Below, one piece after another: positions 8,181 through 40,352 of a DNA stretch of 64,000 nucleotides (positions are counted from its first letter, which is position 1; each line of letters starts with the position of its first letter). Below the pieces are notes generated by a model. It was not told where the DNA came from, ran no database searches, and saw only the letters and a list, made by a program, of their open reading frames with translations. The stretch covers positions 12,158,382 through 12,222,381 of the forward strand of contig CM049317.1 in NCBI GenBank assembly GCA_026874595.1, given 5' to 3'. The stretch comes from Sipunculus nudus. Taxonomy: Eukaryota; Annelida; Sipuncula; Golfingiida; Sipunculidae. The translations under genes were made by a program, and so were the position numbers.

Positions 8181-10742
8181 CATTCTCATGTATACACATG
8201 TATATTTTTATGAAAATAATCATTTTTAACAGAGAAAAAAAATTATAAATTATTATAAACTGATTCTTTTTTGATGGGCTGTTTTTGTCTCTTTTATTAT
8301 TGACTGTTGTACAATTAAGTGACATAAAGGAACAGCTGGTGTCACTGACGCCCCCCCTTGGAAATAAGAATGTTTTATTATTAATTTCTTTAATATTTGT
8401 TAACACAGTTTTCACTCTGTTGGCCTGTTAAAGAGGAATGAAATTATTATAAAAGAATAGCAGGGATCAATGCTGAGGAAATGTACATATATTGAAATAT
8501 CTCTGTGGGATTATGACCTGTTTAACAAATAAGTAACATAACGGTTTGGACCCACTAGCAGAAGGAGAGGGTGGCGGGTGTATGATAGGGAGTTTTGTAT
8601 TGATATAAGAGGAAGGTTACATCCTTTCCATTATTTTTTGCTTAATATCTGTATTTCATGTTATTTCATGAAAATAAAATTATGGAAATAAAGAATGTCC
8701 AAAACAACATGTCTTTCTAAATATGAAATACAATTCAGATCTCAGATCTTTGTGTACCTGTGTGTGTCTCGTTGACCAGATGGTCTTTAAAATCTTAATC
8801 TGCCTAGGTAGTATGGTTTATAAGCATGATATCAGCTTACAATATCATAATGTGAGGTCACAACTGTCCCATTTTATATGTGAAGCTTGCCACTAACACC
8901 TCTGCCCTGCACATTGCAAAAAATATATTGTTTGCAATCATTTCGTCATCTGTACCATCAACAAGCCATGTCAGTTAGTAACAGTGCCTTAATTATAAAA
9001 TACCTGCACTTGTTTTGATATATCTGACTTACAAAGTCACAGTCATATTTTATGATTAGATGTATTATATATTTCTAAATATGTTCTCATTGGAAATCAA
9101 GATTTATGCAGAATATTATAATTAGAAGTTGTTTATGTAGAAATATTACCCCTCATATACACTGTGGCGGTTGTACATGAGTAACAATGTTGGTGAACTT
9201 AAATGTTTAATGGCCTGCATGACACAGCTCCCAACTCACTCACTGTTATATCATTTACACCTCGGTCCTGGGTCTGATGCCCAGCAACAAGGTTGTTCTC
9301 CAATGGGGTGCTTTGACAACAGGCTACACCTCTTTCATATAAATGTATATCATTTTTTCAACAGGATAATCAGCTGTACCTCTGTTTGTTCCAAGCACTG
9401 ACCAATTTATCAATCTGATCCGTCGAACATAAGTAGTACCATGCGGGTCAGTGTCCCTTGCTTTCCAAATTTCTCTAAGTAGCATGTGTTTTGTACCATA
9501 TTGAAAATATAAAATTTATATAAAATTTACTCCTTTGGTACCTGAACTGTCATCATGGCTGTTGCAGTCAGGCCTCCTAAGGTTATGTTAAGCCTGTCAT
9601 ATATGCAGCTGCAGTGCAGTACATGTTATTTGTTTCAATAATTTCAAGGATGTTGTTAATGTTCAGAGACCACAACACAGAAGCAGTCACTTGTGCTGTT
9701 GACTCATCTTAACTATCTTTGAGCTCCTAACGAAAATATACATAAAACTTGTATGTTCAGTTTCTAAATTAAATTATCTGTCAATTCTTATAAATATATT
9801 GTTTGGAATATGTTTCTTCGTGAAAAATATATACTAGGCTAAATATATATGAGATCCCAAGATATACGGGAGCTTAATTATCTTAGGCTGATTATGCAGC
9901 CTTACATAGGTGATACCAAGAGCTCTCATTTTTACAAGCTGTGTGTGTCACAGCAACTAAACGATACACTGTTACTGCTGTAACACGGGGTCAGTGACAT
10001 TCTACACGTATTAACCCTACTTGCCTCTTCAGCTTTTGATAAAGCTGCCCAGCAAACAAAAGTAGTCCCGGTACCAGATGCCATGTCCCTTATCCACTTG
10101 GCTCCTTGTCAACATTGCCATAAAAATCCCAATAGTATCACAGGCTAAGTGCTGGTATGAGAAGGCCCAAAAATGGGTCCATTCCTGTAAAGAACCGTTT
10201 TTTCGTCATGTAGATAAGACGTTTTAATAAGAATAAAAAAACTTTTATAATGTTTTATTTTTTTAGAATATCAGTACAAAAGAGGGATTTATTTATTTTA
10301 GATTCTACAGGTGGATGGATAGACTATCTATATACGATGGAAAAAAGAAAATAATGAAAAAAATTCACATCATTTTACGTTTCTGTGCCATCATTCGAAA
10401 ATACAAAAAATGTTTCATTTGGCTGACAGAAAGTGATCTTATCAGTATATTTTGAAGGGACTCAGGCAAATATTCTAAATGAAGATTGGCAAGGTGGATG
10501 AATAAAGCTCAGACGACTGAAAGGGGATATGCTTTTATTCTCAGAAGAAAAGGTGAAGATATTAATGTATTATATTTGTATAATAATATAAGATCGCTCT
10601 TACAATAATGATCTTTGCTTTTCCCTATACGCATGTACATATATGCTCCTGGATCTGAAACTAATTAATATTTTAAATCTGCCGATAATGCATGGGCAAG
10701 CATATTGGTAAGATTAGGTTCTGCAGGAAATGATTACGTATT

Positions 10743-11048
10743 TCATTGTTGAGTCATTTTCTTAACCATTTCATAATTAAAAGTATTATACTGTTCAAAA
10801 TATCGATTTTTTTGGCTGCTGAAACATTGTTTGTTAATGTTTAAATTAGGTTCTAAGTAAAGGAGACCATAGAGTTTATTGTCCATATTTTCAGTTAAAA
10901 ATGAGAAGGGCACATCTAGGATTAAGGTGATCATTGATTGACAATTAACAATCGAAATTTTTGTGTGGGTAAAAGTTGTTGAAACCAAAGGCATAAAACA
11001 ATCGTGATATGAAATATTACCCCTGAGGGATAAACATAGATAGGACAT
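10743..11048 (-). CDS. Unrecognised 101-codon ORF repeated in the array
   Basis: The ORF sits in the non-pol part of each unit and recurs at 12364-12669, and truncated at 14036-14236. It has no recognisable Gag, zinc-knuckle or protease motif. Being downstream (minus strand) of an LTR end it could be a leader or Gag remnant, but chance is equally likely. The preserved frame in copies 1 and 2 carries no weight because the DNA is almost identical. Confidence 0.25.
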   Translation of the reverse strand: MSYLCLSLRGNISYHDCFMPLVSTTFTHTKISIVNCQSMITLILDVPFSFLTENMDNKLYGLLYLEPNLNINKQCFSSQKNRYFEQYNTFNYEMVKKMTQQ

Positions 11049-11403
11049 TACAAGAGACGAATACGTATCAGAAATTCAGAACGGTTAATCCTTCAGGTAG
11101 CAGTCTATAAAGGATGGCTAAACAATCAGGCATTCTTTTGTATTTACATCAACATATCTATACCCGGAAAATTAAAAAATCGATATGGATTCTGTTTTCG
11201 GTCTTTATGATGTTTGGTATTAACTCATTTTATAATCAGTTATATATCAGGTGTTATCAAAAGAAACCTTATAAAGTTATTGAGACAGAGTAATTCCAGT
11301 TCCTGGTCCAATAAGTGTACCAAGGGATATATATAAATTGTGCATTGTTTCTCTATATAACTTTGTTTTGATCTAGCAGAGCGTGCCTATTCATGATAAC
11401 CAG

Positions 11404-12076
11404 TGTAACGGTCCCTTTTCACACCAAAAAAAAACAACTCAGGCCAAACCGTAACATAAATGCTCAGACACGTTCTCTTCAAACGAATACGTAACCAAAA
11501 TATGGGGACAAAAACAGTGCTATATTAATATATTACAATATTTACATTCGTTCACAAATTATATAATGGTCTATACATAAACAATTTACAACAAGGTCTC
11601 TGAAGGAAAAACTGAGTCTCTAAATAACGAACTGCAACGAAATACTTAACTGAATCCTGTATCTGAAAAACTGAGGTCCATCTTCAACACATAGTTCGGG
11701 CCCACACAAAACTTGTGGCACCAGAAAAAAATCTCTCCTCTTCCTACATAATAAAGTTCAGATTGTAGTTCATTGCATCCCGTGGGCTTGGGGACCAAGA
11801 GACCACGGTCACCGTCCCGGGGAAAACATTGACGTGGCGTAGCAAAATCGATAGCCCCCTTTTGTACTGCAGGCGAGTTTGTTTTATAGGCCTTTTATAG
11901 GTGGAAACCGCAGAAATTTTTGGTTTTGCTTGAGAGAAACGATAGCGCCGTCAGTTCTGCAAAACCAGTACTGAATTGTTCCAGAATAGTGTTTATGCTT
12001 CTCAAAGCGCGTCAGTAGTCACTGATACCGGGGTGGATCCATTAACGTGGACACGGGGGTAGTAACATCACTTCGT
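11404..12076 (-). repeat. LTR copy in array unit 1
   Basis: On the minus strand the LTR end reads CGTTACA (11404 edge), giving a CA terminus. It is followed by TGGTTATCATG, a possible primer-binding site beginning TGG. The opposite edge stops short of the TG terminus present in the fragments at 14525 and 17574. Confidence 0.7.
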
Positions 12077-13024
12077 ATATAATATTCTAAATATTCTAAA
12101 TGAAGATTGGCAAGGTGGATGAATAAAGCTCAGACGACTGAAAGGGGATATGCTTTTATTCTCAGAAGAAAAGGTGAAGATATTAATGTATTATATTTGT
12201 ATAATAATATAAGATCGCTCTTACAATAATGATCTTTGCTTTTCCCTATACGCATGTACATATATGCTCCTGGATCTGAAACTAATTAATATTTTAAATC
12301 TGCCGATAATGCATGGGCAAGCATATTGGTAAGATTAGGTTCTGCAGGAAATGATTACGTATTTCATTGTTGAGTCATTTTCTTAACCATTTCATAATTA
12401 AAAGTATTATACTGTTCAAAATATCGATTTTTTTGGCTGCTGAAACATTGTTTGTTAATGTTTAAATTAGGTTCTAAGTAAAGGAGACCATAGAGTTTAT
12501 TGTCCATATTTTCAGTTAAAAATGAGAAGGGCACATCTAGAATTAAGGTGATCATTGATTGACAATTAACAATCGAAATTTTTGTGTGGGTAAAAGTTGT
12601 TGAAACCAAAGGCATAAAACAATCGTGATATGAAATATTACCCCTGAGGGATAAACATAGATAGGACATTACAAGAGACGAATACGTATCAGAAATTCAG
12701 AACGGTTAATCCTTCAGGTAGCAGTCTATAAAGGATGGCTAAACAATCAGGCATTCTTTTGTATTTACATCAACATATCTATACCCGGAAAATTAAAAAA
12801 TCGATATGGATTCTGTTTTCGGTCTTTATGATGTTTGGTATTAACTCATTTTATAATCAGTTATATATCAGGTGTTGTCAAAAGAAACCTTATAAAGTTA
12901 TTGAGACAGAGTAATTCCAGTTCCTGGTCCAATAAGTGTACCAAGGGATATATATAAATTGTGCATTGTTTCTCTATATAACTTTGTTTTGATCTAGCAG
13001 AGCGTGCCTATTCATGATAACCAG

Positions 13025-13696
13025 TGTAACGGTCCCTTTTCACACCAAAAAAAACAACTCAGGCCAAACCGTAACATAAATGCTCAGACACGTTCTCTTC
13101 AAACGAATACGTAACCAAAATATGGGGACAAAAACAGTGCTATATTAATATATTACAATATTTACATTCGTTCACAAATTATATAATGGTCTATACATAA
13201 ACAATTTACAACAAGGTCTCTGAAGGAAAAACTGAGTCTCTAAATAACGAACTGCAACGAAATACTTAACTGAATCCTGTATCTGAAAAACTGAGGTCCA
13301 TCTTCAACACATAGTTCGGGCCCACACAAAACTTGTGGCACCAGAAAAAAATCTCTCCTCTTCCTACATAATAAAGTTCAGATTGTAGTTCATTGCATCC
13401 CGTGGGCTTGGGGACCAAGAGACCACGGTCACCGTCCCGGGGAAAACATTGACGTGGCGTAGCAAAATCGATAGCCCCCTTTTGTACTGCAGGCGAGTTT
13501 GTTTTATAGGCCTTTTATAGGTGGAAACCGCAGAAATTTTTGGTTTTGCTTGAGAGAAACGATAGCGCCGTCAGTTCTGCAAAACCAGTACTGAATTGTT
13601 CCAGAATAGTGTTTATGCTTCTCAAAGCGCGTCAGTAGTCACTGATACCGGGGTGGATCCATTAACGTGGACACGGGGGTAGTAACATCACTTCGT
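13025..13696 (-). repeat. LTR copy in array unit 2
   Basis: It is nearly identical to the unit 1 LTR, with the same truncated outer edge and the same TGTAACGG inner edge on the plus strand. Confidence 0.7.
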
Positions 13697-14253
13697 ATAT
13701 AATATTCTAAATATTCTAAATGAAGATTGGCAAGGTGGATGAATAAAGCTCAGACGACTGAAAGGGGATATGCTTTTATTCTCAGAAGAAAAGGTGAAGA
13801 TATTAATGTATTATATTTGTATAATAATATAAGATCGCTCTTACAATAATGATCTTTGCTTTTCCCTATACGCATGTACATATATGCTCCTGGATCTGAA
13901 ACTAATTAATATTTTAAATCTGCCGATAATGCATGGGCAAGCATATTGGTAAGATTAGGTTCTGCAGGAAATGATTACGTATTTCATTGTTGAGTCATTT
14001 TCTTAACCATTTCATAATTAAAAGTATTATACTGTTCAAAATATCGATTTTTTTTGGCTGCTGAAACATTGTTTGTTAATGTTTAAATTAGGTTCTAAGT
14101 AAAGGAGACCATAGAGTTTATTGTCCATATTTTCAGTTAAAAATGAGAAGGGCACATCTAGGATTAAGGTGATCATTGATTGACAATTAACAATCGAAAT
14201 TTTTGTGTGGGTAAAAGTTGTTGAAACCAAAGGCATAAAACAATCGTGATATG

Positions 14254-14525
14254 AAATCGATAGCCCCCTTTTGTACTGCAGGCGAGTTTGTTTTATAGGC
14301 CTTTTATAGGTGGAAACCGCAGAAATTTTTGGTTTTGCTTGAGAGAAACGATAGCGCCGTCAGTTCTGCAAAACCAGTACTGAATTGTTCCAGAATAGTG
14401 TTTATGCTTCTCAAAGCGCGTCAGTAGTCACTGATACCGGGGTGGATCCATTAACGTGGACACGGGGGTAGTAACATCACTTCGTGGCGTCATCTTGTGA
14501 TGTTCGGGTGAGTCCCCAGGCAACA
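14254..14525 (-). repeat. 3' LTR fragment
   Basis: It starts (minus strand) with TGTTGCCTGGGG immediately after a purine-rich tract, as a 3' LTR should. It breaks off at about 14257, where it is fused to the internal sequence of the third array unit; the break falls at a shared gaaat/aaat stretch. Confidence 0.75.
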
Positions 14526-14536
14526 CCCCCACCCTT
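14526..14536 (-). other. Polypurine tract of the Gmr1-like element
   Basis: On the minus strand AAGGGTGGGGG abuts the LTR start TGTTGCC. This is the expected plus-strand primer position for an LTR element. Confidence 0.65.
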
Positions 14537-14921
14537 AAAAGACAGAAGGTAAGGAGAGTAAAGCATTAGCACTGTATCACGTATGACGAGTATATGAGTA
14601 ATTTGACATCTTAAAGACTATTAAATATCGTTATTACAAATAGTATCATTCAATATTGTTTATAAATTAACAATCATCAATATCTTAATAAATGTAACAT
14701 ATGTAATACAGCTTTTCAAAAGGGCAGAACATATCCGAGGCTATAACAAGAGTCAATCATCAGATCAAAATTAATGACGTCTCGATAACGTATCAGCGAT
14801 TATGTTATCGGAGCCCTTGATGTTTTTGAAAACTAGGTTAAACTCTGACAGGGCTAGACTCCATCTCATTAATCTCTGATTATTATTCTTCATCTCATGA
14901 AGAAATGTTATTGGATTATGA

Positions 14922-17089
14922 TCAGTATAGACAGTTATATCCTAAAGCGTAGAGCCCAAATATACTTCTAAGTACTGTAACGCCATCAATAGTTTCCTTT
15001 TCAATAGTAGAATAATTCTTTTGATGAGGAAAACAATTCTTTGAATAGTAGCAAACCGGATGACTTATGTTAAAGTCATCGTCTAAAATTAGCATAGCGC
15101 CTACACCGCAATCGCTGGCATCCGTCATGAGAGAAAACGGTTTATCAAAATTTGGAAACTGTTACACAGGTGCACTTTGTAATATAGCTTTGGCTCTTTC
15201 AAAAGCATTTTGACAGTTTTTATTCCAATAGAATTCGCTGTTCTTTTTCAACAGATCCGTTAACGGATTTACAACTTCTGCAAAGTTCTGACAAAATATC
15301 GCATTAGTTCCTTACGAATAGTAGGAACTGGAAATTCTACCATAGCAGATACTTTACTGGTAACTGGTTTTACACAACCTTGACCTACTTCGTGCCCTAA
15401 ATATGTTACAGTTGCACGACAAAATTCACTCTGTGTAAGATTAACTGTCATTCCAGCTTTTTTTCAGTCTCTCAAAGAGTTCTACCAAACTTTGTTTATG
15501 GCCTTCCCATATGTGATTGTATACAACAACATCATCAATATAGCAAGTGCAGTTATCTAAGCCAGATAATACACAGTTCATTAGTCTCATGAAGCATGCT
15601 GGCGCATTTTTCATTCCGAAGGGCATAACTTTGTACTGGAACAAACCGTTTGGCGTTACAAACGCAGATATTTGCTTAGCCCTTTCGGTTAGAGGTAACT
15701 GCCAATAACCTTTGAGCAAATCTAACTTGCTACGTCTATATCTAATCTATACGTGGCAGACCCAATCCTATCAATACAAGCTTCCACCCTGGGCAAAGGG
15801 TAAGTATCTGTTAGGGTGCAAAGGGTAAGTATCTGTTCTTCTTACAGTGTTAACCTTTCGATAATCTGTACAAAATCTGTTGGTCATATCAGGCTTCTTT
15901 ATCAACTAACATGGGGAACTCCAGGACTACTGCTGTTTTCAATAATATCATTCTCTATCATATAATTGATTTCATTCTTTATGACTTGTAACTTTTGGGG
16001 ACCATCTCTATATGGTGCCTGTTTAATTGGAGAAGCATCTCCTACGTCTACATCATGCTGTAGTACATTAGTTCTACATGGGACATCAGGAAATAAAGAG
16101 TCATAATTTAGCAGGATTTCCTTCAACTCTGATAACTGATTGAAATCCAAATGTGACAATGTCTTTTCTAAATTATTTAAAATATCAGAGTTGTTCAGTT
16201 TTACAGGATGTTCACTTTTCTTCATGAGAACATCCTCGGCATTCTTTTCAGTTTCTTTAATGAATACCAAATTTGGCCCGGGGGGGGGGGGGGGACTAGA
16301 TTGAGATGTTTCCGCTGATCTGTCATGATATTCTTTCAACATATTTATATGACAAAGTTGTTGCGACTTTCTACGATCAGGAGTATCAATCACATAATTC
16401 AAATCTGATTTCTTCTCAACAACTTTGTATGGTCCAGATTATTTTGCTTGCAGGGGTTGCCCTGAAATTGGGAATAATACCAGAACTTTAACACAAGTTT
16501 AAATTCTAATTTTGTAGTCTTTTTGTCATATCATACTTTCATTTGTTTTGGGCAATCTTTAAATGTCCTTGGGCGATTTCATTTGCCCTACTTAATTTCT
16601 CCTTAAATCCCTGAACAAATTTTAACAAACTACATTGACAACTCTGTTCCATTCAAGTCTGTTTTAACACCGCCAGGGGGCCTCTTACACAGTGCCCATA
16701 CAATAATTCAAAAGGGCTAAACCCTAAGCTTTTAAGCTTGCACAGGTTCTCGGGCTGCAAATATAAAAAAGGGTAAACCCTTATCCCACTGGTTCCCAGC
16801 GTCAAGACAATAAAGTCTAATCATGTTTTCGAGAGTTTGGTGAAATTGCTCTAGAGCACCTTGACTCTCAGGATGGTAGGCACTGGATTTGTAATGTTTT
16901 ATGCCTAGCTCTGCCATAACCTGGGCAAATATATTTGACATGAAATTTGAACCTTGATCCGTTTGTATTGTTCTTAGTACCAATAGTAGTAAAAAATTTA
17001 ACCAGAGCTTCAACAATTTTCTTTGCAGATATGGTTCTAAGAGGAATAGCTTCTGGAAGTCTAGTTGCAGGACACATGGTTGTTAGCAT
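14922..17089 (-). pseudogene. pol remnant: integrase - reverse transcriptase - RNase H
   Basis: Integrase core: 17089-16732 in two frames, with MCPATRLPEAIPLR, TDQGSNF and HPESQGALE; the second Asp and the Glu are 35 residues apart, matching DD35E. The first catalytic Asp would lie upstream and is missing. The integrase tail continues with GFSPFELLYG and ends in the 16402-15902 frame (TPDRRK, INMLKEYH). RT follows: N-terminal segment, FCTDYRKVNT near 15850-15900 in a shifted frame with a short internal duplication, then 15719-15441 with LKGYWQLPLT, MPFGMKNAP and catalytic YIDD. 15451-15269 has TVTYLGHEVGQG. RNase H (15128-14922) starts TDASDCGVGA. Breaks between frames show the copy is inactive. 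Confidence 0.88.
15902..16402 (-). pseudogene. Fused integrase C terminus and RT N terminus (single frame)
   Basis: This 166-codon frame links the integrase GPY/F-type tail to the RT N-terminal region (LFPDVPCRTN, HDVDVGD, IIENSSSPG). A proline run in the linker comes from a homopolymer of about 16 G on the plus strand near 16279-16294. It is the key evidence for the INT-RT order. Confidence 0.85.
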
Positions 17090-17110
17090 ATATTCATTGC
17101 TATAAAAAGA

Positions 17111-17574
17111 AGTCCATCTTCAACACATAGTTCGGGCCCACACAAAACTGAAGTCTTGTATTAATCCATGTGGCACCAGAAAAAATCTCTCCTCTTCCTA
17201 CATAGTAAAGTTCATATTGTAGTTCATTGCATCCCGTGGGCTTGGGGACCAAGAGCCCACGGTCACGGTTCCCGGGGAAACATTAACGTGGCGTAGCAAA
17301 ATCGATAGTCCCGCCTCGTACTGCAGGCGAGTTCGTTTTATAGGCTTCTAACAATAGGTGGAAACCGCAGACGTTTGTGGTTTGCTTGAGAGAAATGAAA
17401 GCGCCGTCAGTTCTGCAAAACAAGAACTGAATTGTCCCAGAGAATAGTTTTTATGCTTCTCAAAGCGCGTCAGTAGTCACTGATAGCGGGGTGGATGCAT
17501 AAACGTGGAAACGGGGGTGGTTACATCACGTCTTGGCGTCATCTTATGATGTCCAGGTGAGTCCCCAGACAACA
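17111..17574 (-). repeat. 5' LTR, truncated
   Basis: It is similar to the array LTRs but clearly more diverged, with a 20-bp insertion near 17149-17168. It begins (minus strand) TGTTGTCTGGGG at 17574. Its inner part, including the end before the primer-binding site, is absent, and the integrase begins about 20 bp away, showing a large internal deletion. Confidence 0.75.
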
Positions 17575-18019
17575 CCAGGCTTTGTAAAGAAGCTTCGCCA
17601 ATATCCAGCTGCCGATAAGCCCAGTGTGGACGAAGTGATGGCTCTTATAAGACCACATGTTATCTTGCTGGACTCTACTATCAGCCATGTTATATTATAT
17701 CGTAGAATGACTACATGTGTGTCTACTGGGATCGGTAATATGTATACACCTATGACAAGAAACTCTTGAAAATTAATCTTAACAGTGGGTAGAGTACATC
17801 TAACACCAATTTTTACATATATTTTTTTGTTTGGAGGTAACCCCGTCCATTTTTTATGCCCCCTTATGTAATTCTTAATCTTAGGATTTACTTCAGCACA
17901 GTTCCAAAGTTTTCGGTTTTAAACTACGTGGCATGGCGGTACCTTTTGCCTCCTATCATAGTATATTTTTATTCTGGTGTCATCAAGGCAAGGTGTCTAC
18001 CGTACCTGCTGGTCCTGGG

Positions 18020-21446: not shown

Positions 21447-21594
21447 TCAAGTTTTTTAACCGTCTGTATATGATACTTGATATAATATACTGAATATTTA
21501 TTTAAATATGCATCTACCCTTCAAGTTTTTTTACCGTCTGTATATGATACTTGATATACTATGCTGAAAATTTATTTAAATATGCATTTACCTT
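21447..21594 (+). repeat. 74-bp direct tandem duplication
   Basis: Two copies (21447-21520 and 21521-21594) both begin tcaagtttttt and include ccgtctgtatatgatacttg, with few differences. Confidence 0.85.
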
Positions 21595-23060: not shown

Positions 23061-24624
23061 ATTTGGCGCGTCTGAATTTTTGCGCTTTTTTCATTTTACA
23101 GTATAAGCGCAGTTCGAATTTTCGAGCAAATCAGTATGTATGGGGATCTCAATTTGTATCATATTATTAAAATATTCCATCGATTATATAAAAGAGAGGT
23201 TTGTAACGCAACCCACTTCCTAATAAAGAGCTTCGGGTGACTGCGTTAATGCGGGATAGTGAGTACCGTAATTTCACGGGGTAAACAATAAGTAATTACC
23301 AGGACTAACCACAATTGATGATGCAATCGTACTGCACCCAGATACGCTGCCTGACATCTGAGTGAGTTGTGAAATTGTTAAGCTACAACAACAGTGTATA
23401 ATAACTAGAAGCACCTCGCTATGTGTGAACAACAAAAGAAACCCTGCCGGCTCTCAGTGGTACTTCAAAAACATTTAAAGGTGGGTTCTAAAGGTTTTCA
23501 TAGGTTATTTGTTTCACCGTTGTTTCTATAAATCTCTATAAATGGGATCGGATTTCAGCTGCGATGAAATCTTATAACGAGCAACATGACTACTCTTACA
23601 TAAATAAAAACAATATAAATAAAAGAAAACACTCTTACATCCTGGTTGAAGAAGCCTCAACTCAAGCGACCGCGCACGGAGGGATTACCAGACCCACATT
23701 ACTGTGGGTCAGGAGAGAACTCTGCAGTCTTCCAAGCAGCAAACGATCTATATGACACAGGATCGTCTATTCAATTCGCCATTACTCTTAACTTGTAAAT
23801 AAATATATAAGTAATAAAGTCATCTACACGGGCATGTCTGGGGTGTTCGAAATAACGCGTGTTCTTAAATCACGCCCCCGTAAAAAGCGGGAAAATAAAA
23901 ACCCCGCTAACAAAACCACTTCCACAGTATTCTCTTTTACAGTAATATCTCTAATCGGATTTTTCATTTTTCATTCTGGAGTCGAATCTGAAAAATATAT
24001 CTTTTTTGGGACATATATCCAAAACTATAACCTTAACTGCATAAAATTTAACTTATTTTTCTTTCTCTGATTCCTCTCTGGTGATGTCATCTGGCCTCAA
24101 TCTTGTGTCACTTTGTCAGTGACAAAGTGGATGTCTATATAAATTTTACACAACACCCAATTAAGCTGTTGAGCATATTGTGTTGTGAGATGATGCAAGA
24201 AATATCCATAGCAAATGGTAATTCTTACATATAGACCAGCAAAATATCTAATTTGGTAAGTCAGCACTAAGGTGTCAGTTTATTGTCAAAATAATAAACG
24301 AAATAACGGAGTATCCACTGTAATAGAACAAAAAATCATTTGCCTGCAATTTGGCAGGCAGGGTGCCGGCAAGGTCAGTGGCTAAACAGGCGGTCTCCCA
24401 ATCCTTTCCTTCTCCTAGAGGTTATCAAAACTCTAAGTAGCCATGATTCATTTTTCTTCGACTATTCTTATCTCATACACAATACTTCATTTGATAATAT
24501 TTACTTGCAAAAGAGAGATCATTGTGGTTAGAATAAACGGAATGGTTTCATACCCGGGAGAAAATCGAAAAGCGTCCATTTTATTAATAATATTTAATTA
24601 TTTTTTAAAGTTGATATTCAAACT

Positions 24625-25143
24625 TTGATAAACGATAAACTTGCGTCGATACAAGACGACAGTGGTTTGCAGATAATTTGGGGTGGTGACTTCAATGTCT
24701 GTTTCACGGATATGGATGCAAAAGGAGGAAGTTTCAGACCTAAAGCTAAGACAATCAGAATGGTAAAACAGATTATGTATGAAAAAGAATTGAAGGATCC
24801 AGATACCAGCCAGTTTACGTGGAGATATAAAACACCCTTAATTCAACGCAGACTAAATATGATATTAGTATCTACTGAATTAAATGCACATGTTAAACAT
24901 AAAAAGATATTGCCAGCAATGTTGACAGATCATTCAGCATTTATATGTACTGTTGAGACTGTTTTCAAAACAAGTCATGGTCCATCCCATTGGAAATTAA
25001 ATACCTCATTGTTGAACGACCAAGAGTACAATATTTTAATTAGGGAAAACGTTAAAAAGTTGCGAGACAACGATAAAGACACCATGGATGAAATGACCTG
25101 GTGGGAATATTTAAAAATAAAAAATAAGAGAAATTACAATTAA
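24625..25143 (+). pseudogene. LINE apurinic-like endonuclease fragment
   Basis: It contains IIWGGDFN, the RRLNMILVS counterpart of the usual R-I-D-x-x-L-x-S motif with the Asp changed to Asn, and LTDHSAF corresponding to the catalytic S/T-D-H motif. GPSHWKLNTSLLND follows, as in L1-like elements. The domain's N-terminal half is absent, so the fragment cannot be active. Confidence 0.85.
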
Positions 25144-25456
25144 GTATTCTGAGAAAAAAACAAAAACCAGCAAGGAAGAAATTAGAGAGCCTTGAACAAA
25201 ATGCCGCACAAGCAGAAAATAACTTATCAAATGATATACCTCTTAGTCTGGTACAATATGAACATCGCCAACTGGAGCATGAACAATTTTATAAAGCATA
25301 TGTGAAAGGATTAATAGTGAGATCCAGAGTCAAGTGGCATGAGGAGGGTGAACGCAGTACAAAGTATTTTATGAATATTGAAAAGAAAAAGAAAATAAAA
25401 TCTACTATAAGAAAATTGATAATAAATAGACAGGAAGTCCACGAGCCAGTGATATC

Positions 25457-25846
25457 ATGAAATCAGTTAAGGAATATCATCAAGAAAAATATAAGAGAAA
25501 AATATGTGTAGAAGAAAACGAATGTTTACAATTTTTAGATAATATAAAAGTTCCGACAATACCTGGAAACGAGGTAGATCAATGTGAAAGTGAAATTACT
25601 AAGGATGAATTTAAAAATGCGTTAAAAAATATGAAGAATAACAAAACACCTGGTTATGAAGGATTACCAAAAGAATTTAACATAATCTTTTTTGATATCT
25701 TGATTGATGCCCTTTTAAATTGTTTTAATCAAAGTTTTACTAAGGGGTCTCTTACAATTAGCCAAACACAAGCAATAGTAACACTAATTGAAAACCTGGA
25801 AAAGACAATAGGATACTTTCATCCTGGAGACCTATCAGTTTATTGA
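25457..25846 (+). pseudogene. LINE reverse transcriptase N-terminal fragment
   Basis: It shows ITKDEFKNALKNMKNNKTPG, the conserved fingers motif of L1-type RTs. A frameshift follows, after which the expected RPISLLNVD is readable near 25830. Farther on, IIYAIDFAAAFDSI (motif A) lies near 26010-26055, and motif C reads YADN instead of YADD near 26320-26335. Confidence 0.85.
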
Positions 25847-37891: not shown

Positions 37892-37901
<10 letters not shown>

Positions 37902-37903
37902 GT
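37836..37903. repeat. Interrupted (AT)n tract at the Penelope element 3' end
   Basis: AT runs broken by short interruptions. The Penelope RT frame reads directly into this tract and stops there. Confidence 0.85.
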
Positions 37904-38617
37904 ATGTAGTTTCGAGTGGACAAGCATGCGTTTGAGGTTGGGAGGTTGTCTGTAAGCGACAACGGGAGGCGTGGAGAAAAGATAATCTGTAGCGGGATTT
38001 GAATTAAAGTTATTCCAGCATTTTTGTATATTTTTGTTGATAGAGATGATGGCCGGGTGAAATTCCTGGATCATGGGGATGCGTGAATTTATGTCTTTTT
38101 CTTTGTAATTGAGGAGGCTGTTTTGTTTAATATTACAAACTTTTTCAAAATTTTGTAGGATTAACTTGAAAGGGTACCCTTTAATGAGGAAATGTTTGGC
38201 TTTGCATTTAAAATCTGAATCATTTGAGCATATGCGTCTGTAGCGCAGCATCTGTGCAAATAAAATCCCTCGTTTGAGATGTTGTGGGTGAAAGCTACTG
38301 TAGTGGAGATAGCTGTGACGGTCAGTTGGTTTATGATAAATGCTGGTAGTCAAATGTCCATCAGTTATGGCAACTGACACATCAAGGAATGGGATTTGTG
38401 TGGGTGAGGTGTCGATTGTGAATTTGATATGAGGGTTGACATTATTCGCTTGTGCAAAAAAATGTTCTATATATTCAGGACCGTGTTGCCATACAATAAA
38501 TTTGTCATCAATGTAACGTTTATACTCTAAAGGCTTTGATGTGCTGTCGGACAGCAGTTTCCGTTCGAAATCCCACATAAATATATTGGCATAAGCGGGC
38601 GCCATTTTGGTTCCCAT
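37892..38617 (-). pseudogene. Penelope-like RT palm and thumb, motif C
   Basis: It opens with MGTKMAPAYANIFMWDFE and carries RYIDDKFIVW (motif C), IPFLDVSV and YHKPTDRHSYLHYSSFHP. It ends with NLKRMLVHSKL just before the AT tract. The GIY-YIG domain that follows this point in canonical elements is missing. Confidence 0.9.
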
Positions 38618-38666
38618 TGCCGTAGCCTTGGTTTGGACATAGCACTTATCATTGAACTCGATTAAG

Positions 38667-38930
38667 TTATGGGTGAGAATAAAGGGTTGTAGTATCGCTG
38701 ATTACTTGAAGTGAACACCCATGAACTGACATGAAACTGCGACAGGCTTCTATTCCCCCAGTGTTAGGAATGTTACTATACAGTCCAGTGACATCCATAC
38801 TGACTAGCAAAGTGTTAGGGGGTATTGTTGGTAAGTCCGACAGTTTATTGGGAAAATCCGTGGTGTCCTTTATGTAGCTTGGTATATTCCTGAGAAGTGG
38901 CTGCAGAATCGAATCTACATGGCCAGACAT
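38667..38930 (-). pseudogene. Penelope-like RT palm, motif A
   Basis: It includes LLVSMDVTGLYSNIPNTGGI with the motif A Asp. A single-base frameshift near 38690 separates it from the next block, where FILTHNLIEFN is readable. Confidence 0.88.
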
Positions 38931-39035
38931 GTTTTCGGTCAGGGTTCCTATGGAGGAAGCGATGGAACGGAGAGGCGGTAGTATGCCTAGTTGTTTTGCG
39001 ATATGATATACATTTTCAGCATCTGATATGTTATT

Positions 39036-39476
39036 TTATGGGCGGTTATCAGGTTGGTCGATTGTTGTCTCTTGAACCAATTTTGCTAACTTGTGAATCT
39101 TTGGAAGTCCATAAAAATTGGTTGGCTTCGGTTCGGAAGGTAGCGAGGAATTTAATTCTCTGGCACAAGTGGTGAGTGTCTTAATCATGGCCTTGGCCTT
39201 CCTGATGAAAAGTCCAATTGTAGTGGCGGTAACTGGTTCATAAGTATGAGTGTCCCCAAGAAGATCTTCACAGGTTTTGATGTAGTCTGAGGTGTTCATT
39301 AGCGTGATGGCCCCTCCCTTGTCTGCCTCTTTTATGGTGATATCCTGGTTCTTTGTCAGATCAGCTATTGCTGTACGGTGGTTCAAACTGACGTTTGGTA
39401 CTCCCATGTGAACGGGTTGTGAGAGAAAATTATTAAAATGGCTATGGGCTGTGTTTACGAAAGAGTCGATAAACAT
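39036..39476 (-). pseudogene. Penelope-like RT fingers region
   Basis: It includes KEADKGGAITLMNTSDYI and NFYGLPKIHK, both diagnostic for Penelope-like RTs. The preceding residues (WTPPPGRN, near 39490) are readable in the same frame before a break. Confidence 0.88.
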
Positions 39477-39530
39477 GTTGCGTCCAGGTGGAGGGGTCCA
39501 ATGACTTTCACGTTTCTTGCGTTCGTAAGA

Positions 39531-40322
39531 TCAAGTTTCTGTTTTGTTAATCGGGTCCTGAAAAAACTCATGAAGTCGCACTCTCCTAATGAAATCTTCA
39601 TTATTCCGGCACATCTGGATTTTGTCCATGGTTTTTGGTTTGGGGCAGAACGATAAGCCCATATGTAAAATATCCGTTTGATCATTCGATAGTGTTTGAC
39701 TGGAAAGATTGACGATGTTTGATTGATATTCCTTTGTTGGGTCGACTGGGGCCCAAGTGGAAAGAGTCTTAACCGGGTGGATGTTGCCTGATTGTACCGA
39801 GGAAATTTTACGATAGGAGGGGTGTGTGTTCCACAAAGTGTCAAGTTTGCGTACCTTTTTAGAGAATTGTTGTGTCCGGATCCGATGATAAACTCTTGTT
39901 AAGGCAGGTTCAACTTCTTTATGAGTTGATGGCAGTGAGCGTGACAGTTTAGCTTTAGACTTGTTGATTAATCCTAATAAGTGTCTTTGTTGAGAATAGA
40001 CATGTTGTAAAGCCGTATTCCGCAGGAGTTCCGAGACTTTCCGGCATATCCTGTTTCCGTTATCCCTGTGTAAATCGCTGTTAACCTGCAGTGGGTTTTT
40101 AATCCGAAGTCCCTTAGGGACGAGGTCGAACTGTTTGCACTTTTTCAAAAACACTATGTCACTTTGGCATTTGGCTAGTTTGTTGTAGAGTTGTTCCTGA
40201 ATTCTGCGTTCGCGGAGATTATCTGTGTCTAGAAATGGTCCAAAAAACATTTCTGAATTCTCCGGGTGCTGGCTTAAGACAGTCAATGAACACAAAAAGA
40301 AGAGAGACATCAACGCCAGCAT
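39531..40322 (-). pseudogene. Penelope-like element N-terminal region
   Basis: The ATG at 40322 (minus) gives MLALMSLFFLCSLTVLS, an unexpectedly hydrophobic, signal-peptide-like start. A charged region of about 230 residues follows, with the family-typical NLSSQTLSNDQTDIL and LSFCPKP near its end. It runs out of frame near 39531, where the next frames continue. Confidence 0.75.
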
Positions 40323-40352
40323 TTTAAACAATCATATTATTTGGATAACATG

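Follow-up and report, generated by a model that had tools for sequence, protein, structure and literature searches.

The Gmr1 clade of Ty3/gypsy LTR retrotransposons, for which PMC8220671 cites Goodwin and Poulter 2002, and the SCAN domain, whose origin was reportedly set out in an original paper by Emerson and Thomas 2011, are the described systems closest to the element reported here. Gmr1 elements have an integrase encoded upstream of the reverse transcriptase (RT) and a gypsy-type RT and RNase H. Two reviews ascribe a SCAN-type capsid to Gmr1-like elements and derive the vertebrate SCAN domain from the gag of these elements (PMC3424704, PMC4592553); one of the two terms the SCAN family vertebrate specific. 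According to the accessible sections of the respective papers, Gmr1-like elements have been published for fish (PMC11117352), crustaceans (PMC3587641) and the annelid Lamellibrachia (PMC8220671). The crustacean elements GyRex4, Gychoro2, GyMaja1 and GyLiva4 were called the first such elements in protostomes, GyRex4 being known there from the stretch that encodes RT and RNase H (PMC3587641). A later annelid survey counts the Gmr1 clade as present in several phyla and, in its accessible text, did not recover the Lamellibrachia Gmr1 clade from its own data (PMC8556966). The family of our element shares with Gmr1 the listed features and differs from the published examples in host; the likeness is one of features, not of direct sequence comparison.

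The element lies in a window of 64,000 nucleotides (the whole stretch of DNA that was analysed), situated on contig C12 of an assembly of 1.43 Gb in 153 contigs. It is a decayed Ty3/gypsy element that occupies 17574–14254 of the minus strand, with its domains in the order integrase, RT, RNase H (Table 1). We consider it very probably a dead Gmr1-type LTR retrotransposon, a placement that draws on trees built within this genome and on a comparison with Gmr1 by description. A sequence-only reading had seen the end of an integrase and the start of an RT in one minus-strand frame, with integrase core motifs upstream and YIDD and RNase H downstream, and these observations hold. The frame, read stop to stop from 16438 to 15902, carries the integrase C-terminal domain (PF22938), then a linker, then the RT N-terminal part, which is 88–96% identical to the corresponding place ahead of RT in other copies. 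Upstream, the integrase core profile matches at 16732–17082, with a score under the Pfam cut-off; the remnant keeps the second D and the E motif, while the first D and the zinc finger are deleted. Downstream, RT core and RNase H follow at the positions in Table 1. Pol ends with RNase H, after which come the polypurine tract and the LTR, and no integrase was found between RNase H and the 3′ LTR (14771 to 14525).

Table 1. Features of the window copy and of the tandem duplication at its 3′ end, listed from the 5′ to the 3′ side of the element.
Feature	Position	Strand	Details
Target site duplication CTGG, 5′ side	17575..17578	-	adjoins LTR start; CTGG also past LTR end
5′ LTR, positions 1–467 of ~729, TGTTG start	17109..17574	-	86% to LTR of copy A
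Deletion junction, LTR fused to mid-integrase	17100..17109	-	LTR match stops at 17109, internal match begins at 17100
Integrase core remnant, shifted frames	16653..17100	-	PF00665 E 1.2e-5; TDQGSNF and HPESQGALEQ
Integrase C-terminal domain	16334..16435	-	PF22938 E 4.1e-12; residues 2–35 of frame 16438–15902
Linker and RT N-terminal part	15902..16333	-	one open frame with integrase C-terminal domain
RT core with YIDD	15441..15746	-	PF00078 E 5.7e-19; PDB: Ty3-G Gag-Pol E 9.1e-16
RNase H, two frames, stop at end	14771..15161	-	PF17919 E 3.7e-15; PF17917 E 7.6e-14, 4.1e-8
Polypurine tract AAGGGTGGGGG	14526..14536	-	identical tract ahead of 3′ LTR in copies A, B and C
3′ LTR stub	14254..14525	-	truncated at 14254 by deletion
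Target site duplication CTGG, 3′ side	13021..13024	-	past LTR end 13025; also 11400–11403 past 11404
Tandem duplication, period 1621 bp, ~2.3 copies	10468..14257	.	99.8% identical; K2P 0.0012

The window element is a single insertion, bounded by an LTR pair, a polypurine tract and the 4-bp sequence CTGG on both sides. As CTGG stands both before the 5′ LTR and after the LTR end, integrase and RT are parts of one element. The extent of 14922–17574 given earlier was right at its upper end, 17574 being where the 5′ LTR begins, and fell short at its lower end, since RNase H reaches 14771 and the 3′ LTR takes up 14525–14254. Relative to a young copy elsewhere in the genome (copy A, described below), ~2.9 kb has been lost: the remainder of the 5′ LTR together with gag, protease and the integrase N-terminus. 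The remaining 5′ LTR contains TATAAAA at 17342–17336. A tRNA-Lys-like primer site near 17130 was considered and rejected, because the stretch falls inside the LTR; likewise, a domesticated gene was rejected, as the window copy no longer has intact reading frames. Scanning the whole window for Rfam families and tRNAs found nothing. The LTRs of the window copy diverge by a K2P of 0.09–0.12. The two full units of the tandem duplication each contain ~0.94 kb of flank and the 3′ LTR, the latter starting near its position 40, so that the LTR end, with CTGG next to it, occurs at both 13025 and 11404. Together, the divergence of the LTRs and the near-identity of the tandem units imply that the element is old and that the duplication is either very recent or else an assembly effect. 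Elsewhere in the window, two 74-bp tandem copies, 92% identical, lie at 21447–21594.

Relatives of the window copy are abundant in the same genome. With the integrase piece as query, 150 of 4849 candidates were scored, and among these scored candidates open frames reach up to 1624 aa; long-frame copies, which the sequence-only reading had suggested looking for, thus exist. The 29 best-scoring loci after the window copy (L010–L038) are near copies and not independent families. In 28 of them integrase is followed, on its own strand, by RT or the RT N-terminal part (L031 shows no RT), and all four probes match in order in 26, counts that leave out short antisense RT matches (~45% identity) overlapping the true RT. 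The usual RT–integrase order in genome copies had been named beforehand as the finding that would speak against a Gmr1-like element; the copies are integrase-first instead. Five further loci on small, possibly bacterial contigs (L001–L005) had no probe match and were left out. Three copies were studied individually and are called A, B and C (L040, L041 and L044). Copies A and B have open frames of 1606 and 1610 aa, and copy C is not intact, with a broken gag frame and an integrase frame of 581 aa. The frame of copy A encodes, in order, a SCAN-type gag, a protease motif, an integrase with zinc finger and DDE core, RT and RNase H. Its integrase has an H2C2 zinc finger and the residues D, D and E, the last two 35 residues apart, and its RT motif is YIDD. 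The protease call stands on the motif DTGA, as the region matched no Pfam protease profile. In all three copies the frame stops 7 positions beyond the point where the terminal RNase H motif begins, 237–239 bp ahead of the LTR.

The 5′ LTRs of copies A, B and C measure 729, 744 and 734 bp, begin with TGTTG and end with AACA, and are followed after 3 bp by a candidate primer site, TGGCGAC... Across the family, copies are ~6.7 kb long with LTRs of ~730–750 bp (TG...CA). An exact search of the genome for the opening 25 bp of the LTR gives 400 occurrences, against 0 for a reversed control, and 142 of the 400 are preceded by GGGGG, which marks exact polypurine-tract/LTR junctions. Among 100 places listed, 27 same-strand pairs of LTR starts are 5.90–6.14 kb apart, a spacing that, with one LTR added, gives an element of ~6.7 kb. 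Compared with the tetraodontiform Gmr elements, as presented in the accessible part of that study (PMC11117352), the frames fall in the same range (one gag-pol frame of 1506–1634 aa there, frames up to 1624 aa here) and the element lengths are similar (consensus of 6.06–6.47 kb versus ~6.7 kb), while the LTRs are longer here (337–518 bp versus ~730–750 bp). LGF3 of the annelid Lamellibrachia luymesi is a Gmr1-clade family in a lophotrochozoan, with fewer than 25 elements in the accessible text of its report (PMC8220671) as opposed to the 142 exact junctions here.

The two LTRs of one copy are 99.3% identical in A, 99.9% in B and 99.5% in C (MAFFT, gaps set aside; for copy C, BLAST gives 97.6%), and their K2P values are 0.007, 0.001 and 0.006. 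Judged by this identity, the family has apparently been active recently elsewhere in the genome. The three copies are flanked by the 4-bp repeats GTAT, GTGT and ATAT, of which those of B and C are ambiguous as target duplications, since both copies sit in dinucleotide repeats. A target preference for such repeats is possible, yet the window copy is inserted in CTGG. On contig C9 (74615841–74642943), five gypsy integrase matches on one strand recur at ~6.7 kb spacing and mark elements arrayed in tandem. A second family (L058 with L085, L069 with L086) was found via its gag and not via its order; compared with copy A, it is 59–64% identical in RT and ~71% in integrase, and its order is integrase-first as well.

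The gags of copies A and C both match the Pfam SCAN profile (E values of 1.2e-10 and 1.6e-10; 41 bits at a cut-off of 27). Both come from a single family and are almost the same sequence; in the window copy, gag is deleted. Searching the whole genome with the SCAN profile gave 2198 candidates, and all 150 that were scored lie above the cut-off; the same search gave no signal in any of 14 control genomes. Thirty of the SCAN loci were fetched (L055–L084). The protease-region probe matches after the SCAN gag in 27 of these and integrase in 11, and in none of the 30 does an RT match precede integrase. Eighteen of the 19 loci lacking an integrase match end 255–447 bases past the protease region, where integrase barely begins, and the other one, L062, shows a gag alone. 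Neither of two scanned gags from RT-first elements of this genome matches SCAN, and the gag of the RT-first element L051 is of the PNMA type. The RT-first gags L088 and L089 match PNMA with E values of 1.3e-6 and 0.021, the latter below the cut-off. A single-sequence search of the SCAN-type gag against the PDB, with E values up to 1, matched no chain. The SCAN fold is common to both halves of the Ty3 capsid, according to the accessible text of a structural account (PMC6525542). Of the likeness to SCAN, then, only the profile match at the level of sequence carries weight. In a 2024 study, the study's own capsid profiles picked up none of the known human SCAN proteins, as far as its accessible part goes (PMC11011659). 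The same Pfam profile covers the SCAN domain of vertebrate zinc-finger proteins, where it is a domain of host genes, and the gag of the window element's family, where it is part of a mobile element.

The other gypsy elements of the genome serve as controls. All 12 with a readable order (L045–L054, L007 and L008) are RT-first. Ten of these (L045–L054) were hand-picked from 150 rows, and the set is partly redundant, with L048 and L052 sharing the same RT and with L050/L051 and L007/L008 being near-identical pairs. The RT motif lies upstream of integrase in all ten, and Pfam confirms the order RT, RNase H, integrase in the three that were scanned (L048, L051 and L054). In L054, another YxDD-like motif follows integrase, but Pfam puts the RT ahead of integrase. 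One locus, L006, whose order was unreadable, was excluded from both the order count and the trees. Trees of RT (22 rows) and integrase (23 rows) were built entirely from within the genome, on fewer than 100 columns each, and comprise eight chosen copies of the first family and, for each domain, two loci of the second; the RT-first elements number 11 in the RT tree and 12 in the integrase tree. A branch supported at 100/99 for RT and 96/96 for integrase sets the integrase-first rows, the second family among them, apart from the rest, although the tree program warned of long branches meeting. The Gmr1-like order proposed earlier is thus supported by the order of the relatives, by both within-genome trees and by the SCAN-type gag.

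An integrase ahead of RT is normal in Ty1/copia elements, and going by order alone the window copy could be one of these. Its proteins speak so strongly for gypsy that we give this reading next to no credence. The RT matches Ty3-G Gag-Pol in the PDB (best match 4ol8, which we take to be a Ty3 RT structure), the RNase H profiles are of gypsy type, as is the integrase C-terminal domain PF22938, and neither profiles nor PDB searches show copia-type RT or integrase in the window copy. Furthermore, the target duplication is 4 bp long, whereas that of copia elements is usually 5 bp. In the PDB, the integrase of foamy virus (E 9.1e-7) is a closer match to the integrase piece than that of Ty3 (E 1.3e-4); the RT N-terminal piece, searched alone, had no match there and the linker frame just weak, unrelated ones. 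Could the order instead be an accident, the integrase of one ordinary element having been placed ahead of the RT of another by chimerism or nested insertion? The region is indeed rearranged, having been duplicated in tandem and cut by deletions whose junctions are at 17109 and 14254. However, the integrase C-terminus and the RT N-terminus share one open frame, a single target duplication surrounds the whole element, and RT follows integrase in 28 of the 29 relatives too, so the window copy is not a chimera. The RT and integrase trees single out one and the same set of elements, and the diverged second family repeats the order; an accidental origin is therefore extremely improbable.

A weightier alternative, which we nonetheless regard as unlikely, is that the integrase-first order arose independently, in another gypsy lineage outside the Gmr1 clade. 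The trees, built from this genome's own elements, leave room for it, and in the RT tree the integrase-first rows adjoin the RT-first pair L050/L051 (96/98), as a rearrangement within that lineage would also show. In contrast, the SCAN-type gag is tied by the reviews to Gmr1-like elements, whereas the gag of L051 is PNMA-type, and both frame and element length are near those of the fish Gmr elements. The RT-before-integrase order of ordinary Ty3/gypsy clades, such as Mag and CsRn1, was not found in the window copy. A Gmr1-type element remains the reading that we prefer: integrase lies upstream of RT, the RT, RNase H and integrase C-terminus are of gypsy type, RT and integrase share a clade with the genome's other integrase-first elements, and the relatives examined, A and C, have a SCAN-type capsid.

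From general knowledge of LTR elements, an intact Gmr1-type copy would be expected to have its RNA copied from the 5′ LTR and its polyprotein cleaved by its own protease. A tRNA would prime DNA synthesis inside the particle, and integrase would attach the ends of this DNA at a target cut with a 4-bp stagger. The integrase-first order would shift the place of integrase in the precursor and leave these steps unchanged. The window copy arose by one insertion, followed by the loss of ~2.9 kb and of its frames and, later, by the tandem duplication of the 3′ LTR and flank.

On its own, the window copy is ordinary genomic debris. An extension of the group's host range, which the sequence-only reading had held out for a host resembling a lophotrochozoan, is mostly unsupported, because Gmr1-like elements of crustaceans (2013) and of an annelid (2021) are already in print; the element kind is known, and the novelty in host range is small. 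If the host is a mollusc, it belongs to a phylum for which a survey of 56 species, whose Table 1 holds 21 gypsy clades, does not name Gmr1 in that table (PMC6238403), and the extension would be modest. Since the clades of the survey, in its accessible text, come from RT and RNase H alone, an integrase-first group could hide among its new clades. SCAN domain-containing proteins are among the expanded families of the giant clam genome and are tied to transposable elements there, according to the accessible part of that report (PMC11700175), so molluscan gags of this kind may already have been seen without being named. A search of the open-access literature for Gmr1 in molluscs or further phyla and for SCAN in invertebrates led nowhere.

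The link between SCAN-type gag and integrase-first order in a possible lophotrochozoan is the more interesting part. If the host is an invertebrate, this combination bears on the origin of the SCAN domain of vertebrate transcription factors. Tentatively, and at somewhat less than even odds in our judgement, integrase-first elements that carry SCAN-type capsids have diversified in this genome, into at least two families, and moved recently; SCAN would then be no vertebrate feature but an ancient type of Gmr1 capsid, present in protostomes and deuterostomes and later taken into vertebrate host genes. The genome also offers a whole-genome record of an apparently recently mobile Gmr1-type lineage, probably in a protostome; it comprises young copies as well as one old relic, set beside controls from the same genome.

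Relatives were also sought outside this genome. A search of viral contigs found none, and the integrase piece gave 216 matches in plasmid records, all below 60% identity; of these, the 20 listed carry either an IS transposase annotation or none, and one is a Wolbachia plasmid. The assembly itself contains 16 contigs of 61–111 Mb, with bacterial-looking contigs beside them. COX1 matches without internal stops occur on contigs C60, C61, C62, C66, C72, C74, C75, C89 and C123: nine frames of 577–578 aa are spread over eight contigs (for five of the frames, the position exceeds 1 Mb), and C123 has a single frame of 489 aa. This suggests co-assembled bacteria or symbionts, and no animal mitochondrial contig was recognised among the COX1 matches. 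The window holds traces of other elements as well. Minus-strand frames at 37892–40331 contain YIDD, with a weak RT match (PF00078, E 0.0033), and are presumably Penelope-like. On the plus strand, frames at 24598–25846 have an endonuclease match below the cut-off (PF03372, E 0.00099) and probably belong to a non-LTR element.
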